Part shown: one piece after another, positions 674-5,572 of the stretch
How the letters are laid out: the number at the start of each line of letters is the position of its first letter
Position numbering within the stretch: position 1 is the stretch's first letter
NCBI GenBank assembly: GCA_947178045.1
Contig: CAMWWR010000011.1
Span: forward strand, 1-13,366
Direction of reading: 5' to 3'
Source: an uncultured Clostridia bacterium
GTDB taxonomy: Bacteria; Bacillota; Clostridia; Lachnospirales; Lachnospiraceae
Length of the DNA stretch: 13,366 bases
Program-made: the position numbers and the translations under genes
Notes under the pieces: model-generated
The model's database searches: none
The model's input: only the letters and a program-made list of their open reading frames with translations
What the model was told of the DNA's origin: nothing

Positions 674-1906
674 ATGAACTATAAGCTTGTAGCGCTGATT
701 GCCGTGGCGATCGCATTTCTTTTTGACACTTACATGGAATGGCTGAAAATGAAGTCCGCCGGGCGTGAAATTCCGGACAATGTGAAGGATATTTATGATG
801 AGGAATCCTATCGCAAATGGCTGGCATATTACCGGGAAAAAATGAAGGTGTCCTTCATACGGCATATTGTAATGTATCTGGTCACGTTTGTGATTATCGG
901 CTTAGATGTATACGCCAATATTATTAAGCAGCTTTCCCTGACGGGGGATTATCTGGCGGCCATCGGCGTGCTGGTTGCGGATATGCTGATCAGCCTGCTT
1001 TATTCCGTGCCGTGTGAGTACGCGGATTCCATGGTGGTGGAGCAGAAATACGGTTTTAACCGTATGACAAAGAAGACCTTCTTCACGGATCAGATCAAGG
1101 ATGTGATCATTGGTCTGGCTCTTACCTGCGGAATCTGCTGCCTGTTCATTCTGATCCATCATGCGCTCGGCGTCTGGCTTCTGCCTGTTTTTACGGGGGT
1201 TATGCTGCTCCTTGTGCTGCTGCTTGTCTTTCTGTCGCCCGCAATCGGGAAAATACATAATAAATTTGAGCCGCTGCCGGAGGGGGAGCTGAGGGAGCGC
1301 CTCACCCGTCTTCTCTCGGAGAACGGCTGCACGGTCAAGGCGATTAATGTGATGGATGGTTCGAAGCGCTCCTCCAAGGCGAATGCCTATTTTTCCGGCT
1401 TTGGCAGATCGAAGACCATCGTGCTGTACGACACGCTGCTGGAGCAGATGTCGGACGATGAGATCGTCGCGGTTTTCGCACATGAGATGGGGCATAATAA
1501 GCATAAAGACACACTGAAAATGTATGGCATGAATATTTTGAATATTGTTGTATATGTTCTTCTGGCGTGGGCACTTGTCTCTATGCCGGAGATTTACCGG
1601 GATTTCGGGTTTGACGGAGTGAACTACGGCTTTGCGTTTTTCCTGCTCAGCGCGGTCTGCCTGTCTCTTTTGTCGCCGCTCCTCGGTCTGTTTTCGAGCG
1701 CGTTTTCGAGGCGGTTCGAGTACGCCGCAGACCGCTTTGCCGCAGAAAACGGATATGGGGAGGCGCTTGCCTCGGCGCTCAAGGTGCTGTCGAAGAATTC
1801 TTTCTCGTGCCTGACGCCACATCCGCTGCTCGTCGCGCTGACGAGCTCGCATCCGACAGTCAGTCAGAGGATCGCGGCGCTGGAGAAGGAATCCAGTGCT
1901 TTGTGA
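674..1906 (+). CDS. M48 family (Ste24-type) integral membrane zinc metalloprotease
   Basis: A 410-aa membrane protease of the Ste24/CAAX-protease type, which cleaves membrane-associated or misfolded substrates at the inner face of the membrane. The zinc motif H270-E271-M-G-H274 is visible, with the third ligand E349 in FEYAADRFA about 75 residues later and D353 after it, as in M48. The stretch VMDGSKRSSKANAYFSGFG (about residues 224-242) is a hallmark of the Ste24 subgroup. Hydrophobic segments lie near residues 4-22, 62-84, 95-112, 138-195, 290-308 and 317-342. Length is close to the family norm. The ATG is preceded by GTGGAGG at 660-666. Upstream is a switchable hairpin and downstream a gap of 135 nt, so it is probably transcribed alone. 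The natural substrate of bacterial members is generally unknown. Confidence 0.93.
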   Translation: MNYKLVALIAVAIAFLFDTYMEWLKMKSAGREIPDNVKDIYDEESYRKWLAYYREKMKVSFIRHIVMYLVTFVIIGLDVYANIIKQLSLTGDYLAAIGVLVADMLISLLYSVPCEYADSMVVEQKYGFNRMTKKTFFTDQIKDVIIGLALTCGICCLFILIHHALGVWLLPVFTGVMLLLVLLLVFLSPAIGKIHNKFEPLPEGELRERLTRLLSENGCTVKAINVMDGSKRSSKANAYFSGFGRSKTIVLYDTLLEQMSDDEIVAVFAHEMGHNKHKDTLKMYGMNILNIVVYVLLAWALVSMPEIYRDFGFDGVNYGFAFFLLSAVCLSLLSPLLGLFSSAFSRRFEYAADRFAAENGYGEALASALKVLSKNSFSCLTPHPLLVALTSSHPTVSQRIAALEKESSAL

Positions 1907-2041: not shown

Positions 2042-2827
2042 ATGTTTGAGATATGCCCGAAATGTGGAAATTACGAGTGGAATAAGGAGGTTTCTGTGGA
2101 TAAGCGGTCGGCCCGCTGCCCGAAATGCGGCGCTTCGTGGGAGAACCGCGCGTTTCCCCTGTTTATCCTGACCGGATGCAGCGGCGTCGGAAAGACGACG
2201 ACTGCTCGGAGGCTGATGGAGCGGCAGCAGGATTATGCCGTGCTCGACGGGGATATTCTGTTTACCGCCGACGAGGGGGAGTATATGGGCTGGGTCGAGC
2301 GCATCGAAGGGCTGGCGCGCGATTTTATGCAGTGCGGAAAGCCGGTGCTCTGGACGATGGCCGGTAATCTTGACAAGCTTAAAAAAGCCTGCAACGAGCG
2401 GTTTTTTGCGGATATTTACTGCCTTGCACTGGTGTGCGGGGAGGCTGAGCTGCGCCGGCGGATGACGGAGGGCAGGGGCATTTCGGATGACGGCTGGATC
2501 AGGGATTCGGTGAGCTACAACAACTATTTTCTGGAGCATGACCGAATGGATGATATCGTGATCGAGCGGCTGGACATTACCGTGCTTGATCCGGATCAGG
2601 CCGCGCAGCAGGTGGAGCGCTGGATGCGGTCGAAGCTTGCTGCGTGGAGAGCCGGAGGGACGACTGCGGCGGCCTCTGTGGAAACGGTGCGGATGTCAGG
2701 AACGGCGCAGATGCTGGGGAGAATGCCGGAAACGGGAAATGCACAGAGAGCAGGGGGAAACTTTGCGGAAGGAACAGCATGGAGGCCGAACAGAGAGCTT
2801 GGAGAAAAAACGGCAGGAGGATCATAG
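2042..2827 (+). CDS. zinc-ribbon P-loop kinase (AAA/NMP-kinase-like) with repeat-derived tail
   Basis: A 261-aa protein. Residues 5-29 hold two CPKC knuckles (C5/C8 and C26/C29), a zinc ribbon. G45-C-S-G-V-G-K51-T52 is a Walker A motif, and the following VLDGDILF resembles the substrate-binding strand of nucleotide and small-molecule kinases. This suggests ATP-dependent phosphorylation of a small substrate that I cannot name; a nucleic-acid or protein-linked role via the ribbon is also possible. I chose the ATG at 2042 because AAAGGAG lies just upstream and the ribbon starts immediately; the frame is open back to 1991. The recognisable fold seems to end near residue 200 (WMRSKLAAW). The last 60 residues are low-complexity and overlap the 36-bp repeat tract, so they probably arose by repeat growth through an older stop codon. 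The frame ends at 2827, inside the tract. Confidence 0.8.
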   Translation: MFEICPKCGNYEWNKEVSVDKRSARCPKCGASWENRAFPLFILTGCSGVGKTTTARRLMERQQDYAVLDGDILFTADEGEYMGWVERIEGLARDFMQCGKPVLWTMAGNLDKLKKACNERFFADIYCLALVCGEAELRRRMTEGRGISDDGWIRDSVSYNNYFLEHDRMDDIVIERLDITVLDPDQAAQQVERWMRSKLAAWRAGGTTAAASVETVRMSGTAQMLGRMPETGNAQRAGGNFAEGTAWRPNRELGEKTAGGS

Positions 2828-3275
2828 AAGGGATTGGGCGGGGAGATGTCATGGGGACTGGAGCAGACGCAGGCTCGCGGGAAAAAAGCGTCATGGGGGC
2901 TGGAGCAGGGACAGACTTCCGGTGAAAAAGCACCATGGGGAATAGGAGCAGGCTCGCCGCGGGAAAAGGGTATGCGAACAGGAGTCGGTCTGCCGCAGGA
3001 AAACAGTATGCGTACCAAGGCTGGCTTCGGAAGAGAAAGCTTCATGGAGGGCAGAGCGGGCTTGACGCAGGAAAGCATTATGCGAGCAGAAGTCAGCTTC
3101 CATCAGCAAAGCGTCATGGGAGGCAGAGTGAATTTACAACAGGGAAACGGCACAGGGCAGGAGCCGGTTCATGCCGGAAAAGCGGCACAAAGTCCGGCGC
3201 AGGCTCTTGGGATAGAAGCGGCATGGACGCCGAATCAGCTTCCGGAGAAGGAAATGATTCCGAAGAAGGAAACAA
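2690..3275. repeat. degenerate minisatellite, core period 36 bp, about 16 units
   Basis: ATG-led units recur at 2779, 2851, 2893, 2935, 2972, 3008, 3044, 3080, 3116 and 3223. The spacings are 72, 42, 42, 37, then four of exactly 36, then 107. The unit is roughly ATGSGRRCRGRGY followed by a CT-rich patch and GCAGGAAAR. The clearest block is 2851-3151; 2690-2850 and 3152-3275 are more decayed. The tract is strongly purine-rich on the + strand, so several frames are open by composition alone. It forms the kinase C-terminus and the stretch in front of the rhamnosidase. Units abut with no unique spacers, so this is not a CRISPR. Confidence 0.8.
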
Positions 3276-5380
3276 TGCTGGAGCCAGAGAAAACGGCGGG
3301 CAGGTGGATATGGTATTACGGCGATTTTGAGATATATCACAGTCTGAAGCTCCATGCAAGGCGCGACGAGTTCGAGCACAATTTTCCTCCGTTCTGGCGG
3401 CTTGACGACTGCCGTCACAATGTGAGATTCCGAAAAGAGGTGACGCTCAAGGCACCGGAGATGATTACGGTATATGCCCGCGGAGTGGGCAATGTGGAGA
3501 TCGACGGAAAGCGCCGGGCGTTTGAAAAGCCGGTTTACCTGGCCGGGGGAAAGCACACGATCCTGGTGTCCGTTCTGAATCGGGACGGATTGCCGTGCAT
3601 ATATGTTGAGGGAAAAACGATCGCAAGCGACGAGAGCTGGCTTGTGAGCTGCTATGGCCGGGAGTGGGAAAATGCGGGCAGCAGTGAGATGTATACGTCG
3701 AAAACGGATGAGCCGCAGGTATTCAAATTTTGCTATGAGGAGATCGAGCCGGTCGAAAAGAGGGAGATGAACGGAGGTATCCTCTATGATTTTGGCAGGG
3801 AGACCTTCGCAAAGCTGCATGTCGGCGTACAGGGCGGAGATATTGATATTTTTTACGGGGAGACGCAGGAGGAGGCGCTGGATACCGAGAATTCCTATCT
3901 GCGGGCACATGTCCACGCACAGGGGGGAGCGCGGCCTCAGCAGGAAAATTCAGCACCAGTGCAGTCGTATCAGCAGGGGGAGATTGCGACTCATCCGCAT
4001 TTGCAGGAGGAGTCCGGGACTTTGACTCAGCCGCAGGAGGAGCCGTATTCACAGGAAATCCCGGCCCGGGCATTTCGTTTTTTGTACATCCGCGCGGCGT
4101 CGGAGGAGGATTACCGGCTGAGCGTATACCATGAGTACCTGCCGCTGCAGGTCAGAGGCAGTTTTCGCTGTTCGGACGAGCGGCTGGATCGAATTTGGGA
4201 CACGGCGGCGTATACCTTCGGGCTGAACAGCAGGGAATTCTTCCTCGACGGCATAAAGCGCGACCGCTGGGTGTGGTCGGGCGACGCGTACCAGAGCTAT
4301 CTGATCAACCGCTACCTTTTTTTTGATGAAGATATCTGCAGGAGGACCATCCTTGCCCTGCGCGGTCTGGATCCGGTTGAAAAGCATATCAATACGATCA
4401 TGGACTATTCCTTCTACTGGCTCATAAGCATTTACGACTACTATGAGATGTCGGGCGACAGGGAATTTGTACGGCGGATTTATCCGAGGATGCGGTCGCT
4501 GATGGAGTTCTGCATGTCAAGGCTGGACGCGGACGGCTTTGCCGCACAGGTGGAGGATGACTGGATTTTTATCGACTGGGCGGATATGGACAAGACGGGG
4601 GCGGTCTGCGCGGAGCAGCTGCTCCTGGCCCGAAGCCTTGAGGCGATCGCGGAGTGCGGGCAGGTGCTCGGCGAGGACTGTGCCGGCTGGCGCGCCGCCT
4701 TTGCGGAGCTGAGGGAAAAAATCGACCGCTTTTTCTGGGACGAGGAGAAAGGAGCGTTCATCGACAGCTTTGCTTCGGGGCGGCGAAATGTCACGCGGCA
4801 CGCAAATATTTTCGCGCTGCTGTTCGGATATGCGAATGAGGCGCAGAGGGAGCAGATCGTGAAAAACGTTTTGCAAAACGACGCGGTTCCGCAGATCCGG
4901 ACGCCGTATTTTAAGCTCTACGAGCTGGAAGCCCTGTGCCGGGCCGGAAGGCAGGAGGAGGTGACGGAGCGGATTCGAGCCTATTGGGGAGCGATGCTCG
5001 ATGCCGGGGCAACGAGCTTCTGGGAGGAATATATGCCGGAGCTGCCGTGGGATGAGCAGCTTGGAATGTACGGGGATAAATACGGAAAGAGCCTGTGCCA
5101 TGCGTGGGGCGCAAGTCCGGTCTATCTGGCCGGCAGGTATTACCTTGGTGTGCGTCCGACGTCGCCGGGCTATAAAACCTTTGAGGTGGCTCCGAATCCG
5201 GGCGGGCTGGACTGGTTTGAGGGAACGGTTCCGGTCGGCGCAGGCCAGGCAGCAGTTCGTTTCCGGGATGGGGTGCTGGAGGTCTGCACGGACGCGGACG
5301 GCGGCGTACTGGTGTGGAAAAACGAGCGGTATCCGCTGGAGAAAGGAGAGGTGAAGCGGTTGTCCTGTAATCAGCGGTAG
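3254..5380 (+). CDS. GH78-like alpha-L-rhamnosidase (cytoplasmic)
   Basis: A glycoside hydrolase of the alpha-L-rhamnosidase group, expected to release rhamnose from imported oligosaccharides or glycosides. There is no signal peptide or membrane segment. An N-terminal beta-sandwich begins at RWIWYYGDFEIYHSL. The (alpha/alpha)6 catalytic domain carries DGIKRDRWVWSGDA (D332 onward, counting from 3254), SFWEE (E591) and SLCHAWGASPVYL, then a C-terminal beta domain. Family norms place the N-terminus near RWIWYY, so I prefer the ATG at 3254 (GGAGAAGG before it, 708 aa) or the one at 3275 (AAGAAGGA). The frame is open to a TTG at 2834 (848 aa), but that extension is the minisatellite. A glutamine-rich insert sits at about residues 222-269. 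The acid-residue motif differs from classic GH78 (see findings), so the exact substrate is uncertain. Start choice is the weakest point. Confidence 0.85.
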   Translation: MIPKKETMLEPEKTAGRWIWYYGDFEIYHSLKLHARRDEFEHNFPPFWRLDDCRHNVRFRKEVTLKAPEMITVYARGVGNVEIDGKRRAFEKPVYLAGGKHTILVSVLNRDGLPCIYVEGKTIASDESWLVSCYGREWENAGSSEMYTSKTDEPQVFKFCYEEIEPVEKREMNGGILYDFGRETFAKLHVGVQGGDIDIFYGETQEEALDTENSYLRAHVHAQGGARPQQENSAPVQSYQQGEIATHPHLQEESGTLTQPQEEPYSQEIPARAFRFLYIRAASEEDYRLSVYHEYLPLQVRGSFRCSDERLDRIWDTAAYTFGLNSREFFLDGIKRDRWVWSGDAYQSYLINRYLFFDEDICRRTILALRGLDPVEKHINTIMDYSFYWLISIYDYYEMSGDREFVRRIYPRMRSLMEFCMSRLDADGFAAQVEDDWIFIDWADMDKTGAVCAEQLLLARSLEAIAECGQVLGEDCAGWRAAFAELREKIDRFFWDEEKGAFIDSFASGRRNVTRHANIFALLFGYANEAQREQIVKNVLQNDAVPQIRTPYFKLYELEALCRAGRQEEVTERIRAYWGAMLDAGATSFWEEYMPELPWDEQLGMYGDKYGKSLCHAWGASPVYLAGRYYLGVRPTSPGYKTFEVAPNPGGLDWFEGTVPVGAGQAAVRFRDGVLEVCTDADGGVLVWKNERYPLEKGEVKRLSCNQR
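3917..4062. repeat. 30-bp in-frame repeat insert inside the rhamnosidase gene
   Basis: GCAGG-G/AGG cores recur at 3973, 4003 and 4033, exactly 30 bp apart, with a looser copy at 3940. The encoded 10-residue units are variants of QQGEIATHP, LQEESGTLT and PQEEPYSQE. They form a Q/E-rich loop between ENSYLRAHV and RAFRFLYIRA, where relatives have a short turn. This is probably a flexible surface loop. Confidence 0.65.
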
Positions 5381-5510: not shown

Positions 5511-5572
5511 GAAAACAGGGATAGGACACACGAAAGCAGGGAACGGAACACACAAAAACCGGGAGGGAGCGG
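5511..5572. repeat. three imperfect 21-22 bp tandem repeats in the leader
   Basis: GAAAACAGGGATAGGACACAC without its last base (5511-5530), a close copy starting at 5532 (GAAAGCAGGGAACGGAACAC) and a decayed third copy from 5554. They run up to the GGGAGGAGG ribosome binding site of the 5591 gene. Position 5431-5510 holds only a small stem (GCTTC 5463-5467 with GAAGC 5474-5478). Confidence 0.5.

Follow-up and report, generated by a model that had tools for sequence, protein, structure and literature searches.

The stretch of DNA analysed here (13,366 nucleotides of an uncultured Clostridia bacterium, hereafter the window) carries a tract of ATG-led repeat units between a kinase-like and a rhamnosidase-like coding region. 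The question that this locus raises is whether a minisatellite has grown in the junction of two neighbouring genes and lengthened the protein on either side, as the original prediction held, or whether the tract belongs to one gene. We favor the latter possibility and put at roughly 0.8 the probability that the tract is the fast-turning, repeat-built inter-domain linker of a single fused kinase-rhamnosidase gene, split in this genome by a TAG codon. This reading rests on fused relatives, and it corrects a likely misreading in which one gene with a stop is taken for two genes with odd tails. The features of the locus are given in Table 1.

Table 1. Features of the kinase-rhamnosidase locus in window coordinates.
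Feature	Position	Strand	Basis and detail
Zinc-ribbon and P-loop kinase-like domain, 203 aa	2042..2650	+	Pfam AAA_33, 30.2 bits; four Cys and Walker A
Inter-domain linker, 218 codons (204-421), purine-rich, repeat-built, holding the in-frame TAG	2651..3304	+	Borders from alignment with the fused G004 protein
In-frame TAG splitting the ORF	2825..2827	+	261-aa kinase product on two contigs
Downstream half as an ORF of its own	2834..5380	+	848 aa from TTG, 844 aa from ATG 2846; P0004 = 844 aa
42-bp tandem array	2848-2951	+	TRF period 42, 2.5 copies, score 115; units read as (S/A/P)-W
+1 phase change	2935..2944	+	ATG spacing of 37 (2935-2972) instead of 36
36-bp TRF array	2940-3012	+	TRF period 36, 2.0 copies, score 88
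36-bp degenerate array, units read from ATG (Met)	about 2944-3151	+	TRF, lag-36 test and phase analysis; one base off the phase of the 42-bp block
Stretch with compensating -1 phase change	3152..3223	+	ATG 3116 to 3223 = 107 = 3 x 36 - 1
Rhamnosidase-like glycoside hydrolase domains	3305..5380	+	PF21209, PF17389, PF17390; PDB 3cih (putative alpha-rhamnosidase), E 3.9e-181

The idea of two neighbouring genes did not survive comparison with relatives. The kinase and rhamnosidase parts lie in the same reading frame with the TAG as the single stop between them, and a congener (G004) spans the locus with a single ORF of 1086 aa, whose protein belongs to a 90%-identity cluster (P0001) of 38 member sequences. 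Our search covered about 5.8 billion proteins and took 7994 scored candidates to 3086 relatives; the best 120 of these 3086 held two full two-part proteins (P0001 and P0002, the latter of 1068 aa), one partial one (P0003) and the window's own downstream half (P0004), the other 116 being 627-700 aa long. The fused set that we compared is only two complete sequences and one partial. P0003 (897 aa) combines the linker and the rhamnosidase with roughly the C-terminal 76 of 203 kinase residues; its first residues are unlike the kinase, and similarity to the family sets in within the domain, as would be seen if a frameshift had broken the kinase part. Unfused kinases stop right after the domain (P0122 at 207 aa, P0123 at 200 aa, G003 at 204 aa). 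The two parts form one ORF in some genomes (G004, P0002) and are separate in others (P0122, P0123, G003 and, for the rhamnosidase, P0005), as is expected of a gene fusion. That these are simply two ordinary genes, both lengthened by a repeat at their junction, is accordingly very improbable: the two ORFs of the window's genome and the unfused relatives of each half speak for it, but it is contradicted by the fusion in G004 and P0002, by the linker in P0003, and by the shared frame, which compensated phase changes (see below) keep single across the tract.

The domains that flank the tract belong to known families. The kinase-like domain exceeds the AAA_33 cut-off of 27 bits and falls within the P-loop kinases; its Cys 5, 8, 26 and 29 and its Walker A residues are invariant columns among 37 aligned kinase sequences, and the sole solved sequence that it matched was 2bdt (E 8e-4). 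The downstream part scores over the cut-off for each of its three Pfam families (PF21209 at 102.2 bits, PF17389 at 94.2 and PF17390 at 27.9) and so has the N-terminal, six-hairpin and C-terminal domains of a bacterial alpha-L-rhamnosidase. It is predicted to be such an enzyme, one that we take to be of the GH78 type. The rhamnosidase contains a further low-complexity insert (window 3923-4051), enriched in Gln, Glu and Pro; compared by eye, it differs both in length and in sequence from its counterparts in G004, P0002 and the unfused P0005 and is missing from P0003 and P0006. In another lineage the kinase family also occurs as a fusion with a GNAT acetyltransferase (P0190, 368 aa), and a GNAT gene lies near the kinase in both the window and G004, which together may indicate a functional link.

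Kinase relatives are present in 4 of the 6 genomes of the genus (E 1e-5) and in 10 of the 397 of the family (E 1e-10), the window's own genome counted. The rhamnosidase occurs in 2 of the 6 genomes of the genus and in 7 of 61 relatives in all (E 1e-20); with P0005 as query (E 1e-60), 13 of the 397 family genomes have it, the other 12 as open frames of 501-755 aa versus 850 here. In the trees, the four rhamnosidases group together with moderate support (88/84), beside the unfused P0005 and within a 100/100 clade, and the kinase of another genome, G001, belongs to a clade, unresolved internally, that also holds the fused kinases. No unfused kinase nearer than that of G001 was found in 395 genomes, no kinase lay beside distant rhamnosidases within the examined flanks of 12 loci (L016-L027), and among plasmid records 45 matched the fusion, none of them reaching 80% query cover. 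The downstream order u353, HAD, tldD, tldE is common to the window and G004. Upstream, a gene for an M48-family membrane peptidase (window 674-1906) separates the kinase from the GNAT gene; in G004 the GNAT and fused genes are immediate neighbours, and the stretch examined held no M48 match.

The repeat itself is real, and its array mixes 42-bp with 36-bp units. The predicted 36-bp period was borne out: in 2690-3275 the strongest lag is 36, with an identity of 0.455 versus 0.285 (sd 0.019) in dinucleotide shuffles, a level reached by none of 500 such shuffles and by none of 500 codon shuffles, and TRF finds a 36-bp array beside the 42-bp one. The ATGs at 2972, 3008, 3044, 3080 and 3116 are, as noticed at the outset, spaced exactly 36 bp apart. 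Pairs of 24-bp windows with at least 18 common bases number 16, against a codon-shuffle mean of 0.38 and a maximum of 3 (100 shuffles), so the tract, with head-to-tail units of 10-100 bp and a period above chance, classes as a minisatellite. Its supposed reach, from the 3' end of the kinase to the 5' end of the rhamnosidase, stands in part: fainter relatives of the units extend over 2767-3238, but in the 138-bp kinase tail alone lag 36, while best, is within chance across all lags (63 of 500 dinucleotide shuffles reach it). Purines make up 0.677 of the linker versus 0.565 of each flanking domain. The linker has no Pfam match and the window no Rfam match at gathering thresholds; on the latter ground we rejected an RNA element. 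A dispersed or mobile repeat was likewise ruled out, the tract having no second copy in the sampled part of the genome (five other DNA matches, of at most 32.8 bits). A separate 22-bp tandem repeat (2.5 copies, window 5511-5564) lies in the intergenic spacer that follows the rhamnosidase.

The genome at large is rich in such arrays. With periods of at least 12, TRF reported 63 arrays in 497 kb of the window's genome (G000, contigs C1-C41; 12.7 per 100 kb) and 42 in 915 kb of five congeners, a 2.8-fold higher density by rate ratio (P 3e-7) in samples that consisted of the longest contigs for the former and contig starts for the others. Two other family genomes gave 4.6 (G007) and 12.5 (G009) arrays per 100 kb, and given the second of these the density is not unique to the window's genome. 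Periods that are multiples of 3 were found in 39 of 48 arrays inside long ORFs versus 2 of 15 outside (Fisher P 3e-6), and the commonest periods were 18 and 36 bp (9 arrays each). Density and periods together make the tract one case of a genome-wide habit.

Evidence that the tract evolved within one open frame comes from a switch of reading phase inside it. We took as anchors the [CT]ATG[GC] motifs in 2651-3304, of which there are 11: five (2779, 2851, 2893, 2935 and 3223) read as xxA-TGG, i.e. tryptophan, the five evenly spaced ones are in frame as methionine, and one (3171) sits in the third phase. Six of the 17 ATGs of 2690-3275 fall outside this two-phase pattern. The same picture is obtained from kin pairs with at least 17 of 24 common bases (18 pairs; codon-shuffle mean 2.25, maximum 6). 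Specifically: (i) all 5 pairs that start left of 2942 and end in the 36-bp block have a lag of 1 mod 3; (ii) four further pairs of the same two blocks have a lag of 0 mod 3 and start at 2943-2956, past the phase change; and (iii) the pairs that join the left part to the last units have a lag of 0 mod 3 in 3 of 3. The 36-bp block is thus one base out of phase with the units on both sides of it, which means that two indels have cancelled, and this argues that the net frame mattered when the indels arose, the residues less. Which block changed is suggested by the tryptophans of the relatives, according to which it would be the methionine block. In the G004 linker, four CATG anchors split 2:2 over two phases, and only one of the four is at a tryptophan.

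That the tract has turned over rapidly is seen in the contrast with its flanks. Compared with G004, the kinase of the window has an amino acid identity of 83% (dN/dS 0.105) and the rhamnosidase one of 78% (dN/dS 0.122), versus 24% over 181 aligned codons of the linker, where synonymous sites are saturated. Linker length is 218 residues in the window, 201 in G004, 194 in P0002 and 168 in P0003, so that between species the flanks are conserved and the tract varies in length (168-218 residues). The linker protein repeats most strongly at a lag of 12 residues in the window, of 14 in P0002 and of 26 in P0003 (each reached by 0 of 1000 shuffles), from which it follows that unit lengths of 12 and 14, and their sum, recur. 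The G004 linker has no significant protein period (its best lag is equalled in 87 of 1000 shuffles), and in its DNA the best lag is 42 bp, with 36 bp fourth. In P0003 two adjoining 26-aa units are alike at 25 of 26 residues and a third at 13 of 26; the near-identity of the first two indicates that part of the growth in P0003 is recent. The two outcomes that had been named as speaking against repeat growth, namely orthologues of equal length with protein-level conservation and the lack of a period, did not turn up.

The linker draws on few residue types, and tryptophan follows A, S or P more often than in 5000 shuffles in the window (5 cases, P <0.0002), G004 (5, P 0.003) and P0003 (4, P 0.02); P0002, with 1, shows no excess (P 0.53). 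At lag 36 the three codon positions have identities of 0.49/0.41/0.45 across the linker as a whole, on the strength of which we set aside protein-level selection on the repeat. In the core (2972-3152) they are 0.61/0.54/0.44, third positions lowest, a mild hint of protein-level constraint that goes against full neutrality and still allows a weak constraint. The open frame is weak evidence in such purine-rich DNA: under a Markov model the linker frame has fewer stops than expected in the window (1, mean 5.2, P 0.032) and in G004 (0, mean 4.0, P 0.020), and another plus frame holds just 1 stop in each of these linkers.

The scenario that we favor is the following. An N-terminal zinc-ribbon/P-loop kinase-like domain would be tethered to a C-terminal rhamnosidase-like glycoside hydrolase by an old array of kindred 36- and 42-bp units, which would grow, shrink and be overwritten separately in each lineage, presumably through replication slippage or unequal recombination. 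Selection would act on the net open frame and on a hydrophilic, flexible chain, and little on the residues. Most likely, then, the linker is a passive, flexible tether between two putative enzymes, remade by slippage. The original prediction, that coding sequence grew by repeat expansion, would in this way be kept as to growth (conserved flanks, variable linkers, differing periods) and lost as to place, two proteins not having been extended at a gene junction. A bolder version, to which we give only limited credence, is that the coding bridge joining the kinase gene to the rhamnosidase gene was created by a minisatellite at their boundary, and that this bridge was then constrained mainly to stay open. 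If true, this would entail frame changes of whole blocks, replacement of units and reversible fusion and splitting between species, and would show in detail, across several related bacteria, how repeat growth leads to new coding sequence and to new unions of domains.

It remains to place the stop. The kinase domain ends at residue 203 and its ORF at 261, a tail of 58 residues where about 60 had been foreseen. The rhamnosidase does have an extension, slightly over the 140 residues set as its upper limit (153 codons ahead of the domain from ATG 2846, 157 from TTG 2834). With the TAG in place, the product would be split into a 261-aa kinase with its tail and, if translation restarts, a rhamnosidase of 844 or 848 aa with a long leader. 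Probably, then, the halves are now separate proteins in the window's genome, the second restarted soon after the stop, or the second is not made. The latter case would be that of a decaying gene, the rhamnosidase half unmade and the locus heading for loss as in G001, where (L060 232-2638) an unfused kinase is followed directly by tldD/tldE, with nothing between kinase and tldD that matches the rhamnosidase, the 353-aa gene or the HAD gene. The truncated kinase of P0003 fits such decay. We nevertheless think it unlikely, if less so than the alternatives that follow, as neither domain has a further in-frame stop, dN/dS against G004 is low (though a recent event would leave no mark there) and G001 may never have had the fusion.

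Two further explanations, both of which we regard as doubtful, concern the stop itself. The first is that assembly or consensus calling introduced the TAG in error and that the window's genome, too, has an intact fused gene. The genome is metagenome-assembled (431 contigs, 69% complete), both halves still agree in frame, and tandem repeats are known to cause such errors, as stated in PMC6868369. Against this, the identical 261-aa product with the same stop is present on two contigs (the longest of 16094 bp), which is not decisive since the contigs may share reads. Furthermore, the linker as query matched P0004 only and no open version from the window's species, for which reason we infer the fused state in that species from relatives. 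Finally, when 379 G004 ORFs were compared with 41 sampled contigs of the window's genome, 17 matched and 3 of these had an internal stop; two of the three, antisense over another matched ORF, were dropped as shadows, leaving the kinase-rhamnosidase gene as the one stop-bearing ORF among the remaining 15. On balance the stop is probably real. The second explanation is that it is a working feature, with two coupled proteins for which the ATG-led units would serve as alternative starts, or with partial read-through that yields some fused protein. An AGGAGG lies just before the TAG (2815-2820), a TTG and an ATG follow 7 and 19 bases past its last base, and there are eight in-frame ATGs between stop and rhamnosidase domain. 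Yet 5 of the 11 in-frame linker ATGs have a Shine-Dalgarno-like match, no excess over codon shuffles (mean 3.5, P 0.25), and purine-rich DNA yields such sites by chance; we rejected a ladder of starts on these figures. General recoding of TAG is unlikely because TAG also terminates the rhamnosidase ORF.

The fusion of bacterial genes and the origin of long linkers are usually seen only once their traces have gone. Here four relatives have common flanks and a linker that differs in unit, in length and, within the window, even in phase, and unfused relatives exist as well. With these in hand, the order of fusion, repeat growth and splitting can be tested in related strains.

In the open-licence PMC literature we found nothing on point for a kinase-rhamnosidase fusion or for repeat-built fusion linkers; there are, however, three kinds of known system with which the locus can be compared. 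Composite ('Rosetta stone') proteins, treated for fusion/fission families in Archaea (PMC11237513), are similar in that the proteins are separate in relatives, one in a clade and split in one member; they differ in that the long linker here is a repeat array turning over between species. Variable intragenic tandem repeats and minisatellites of bacterial ORFs (PMC6868369) share with the tract the tandem units, a period divisible by 3 and a length that differs between relatives, whereas the array here is very degenerate, has two phases in one ORF and differs in length between species. Low-complexity inter-domain linkers are the third, from a study of low-complexity regions in prokaryotes whose reference list names Q-linkers (PMC6821194). 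Like them, the linker lies between folded domains and has a restricted composition (G, A, K, E, R, Q, S, T and P make up 76% of it), and unlike them it is about 200 residues long, has spaced tryptophans and is periodic at the DNA level.
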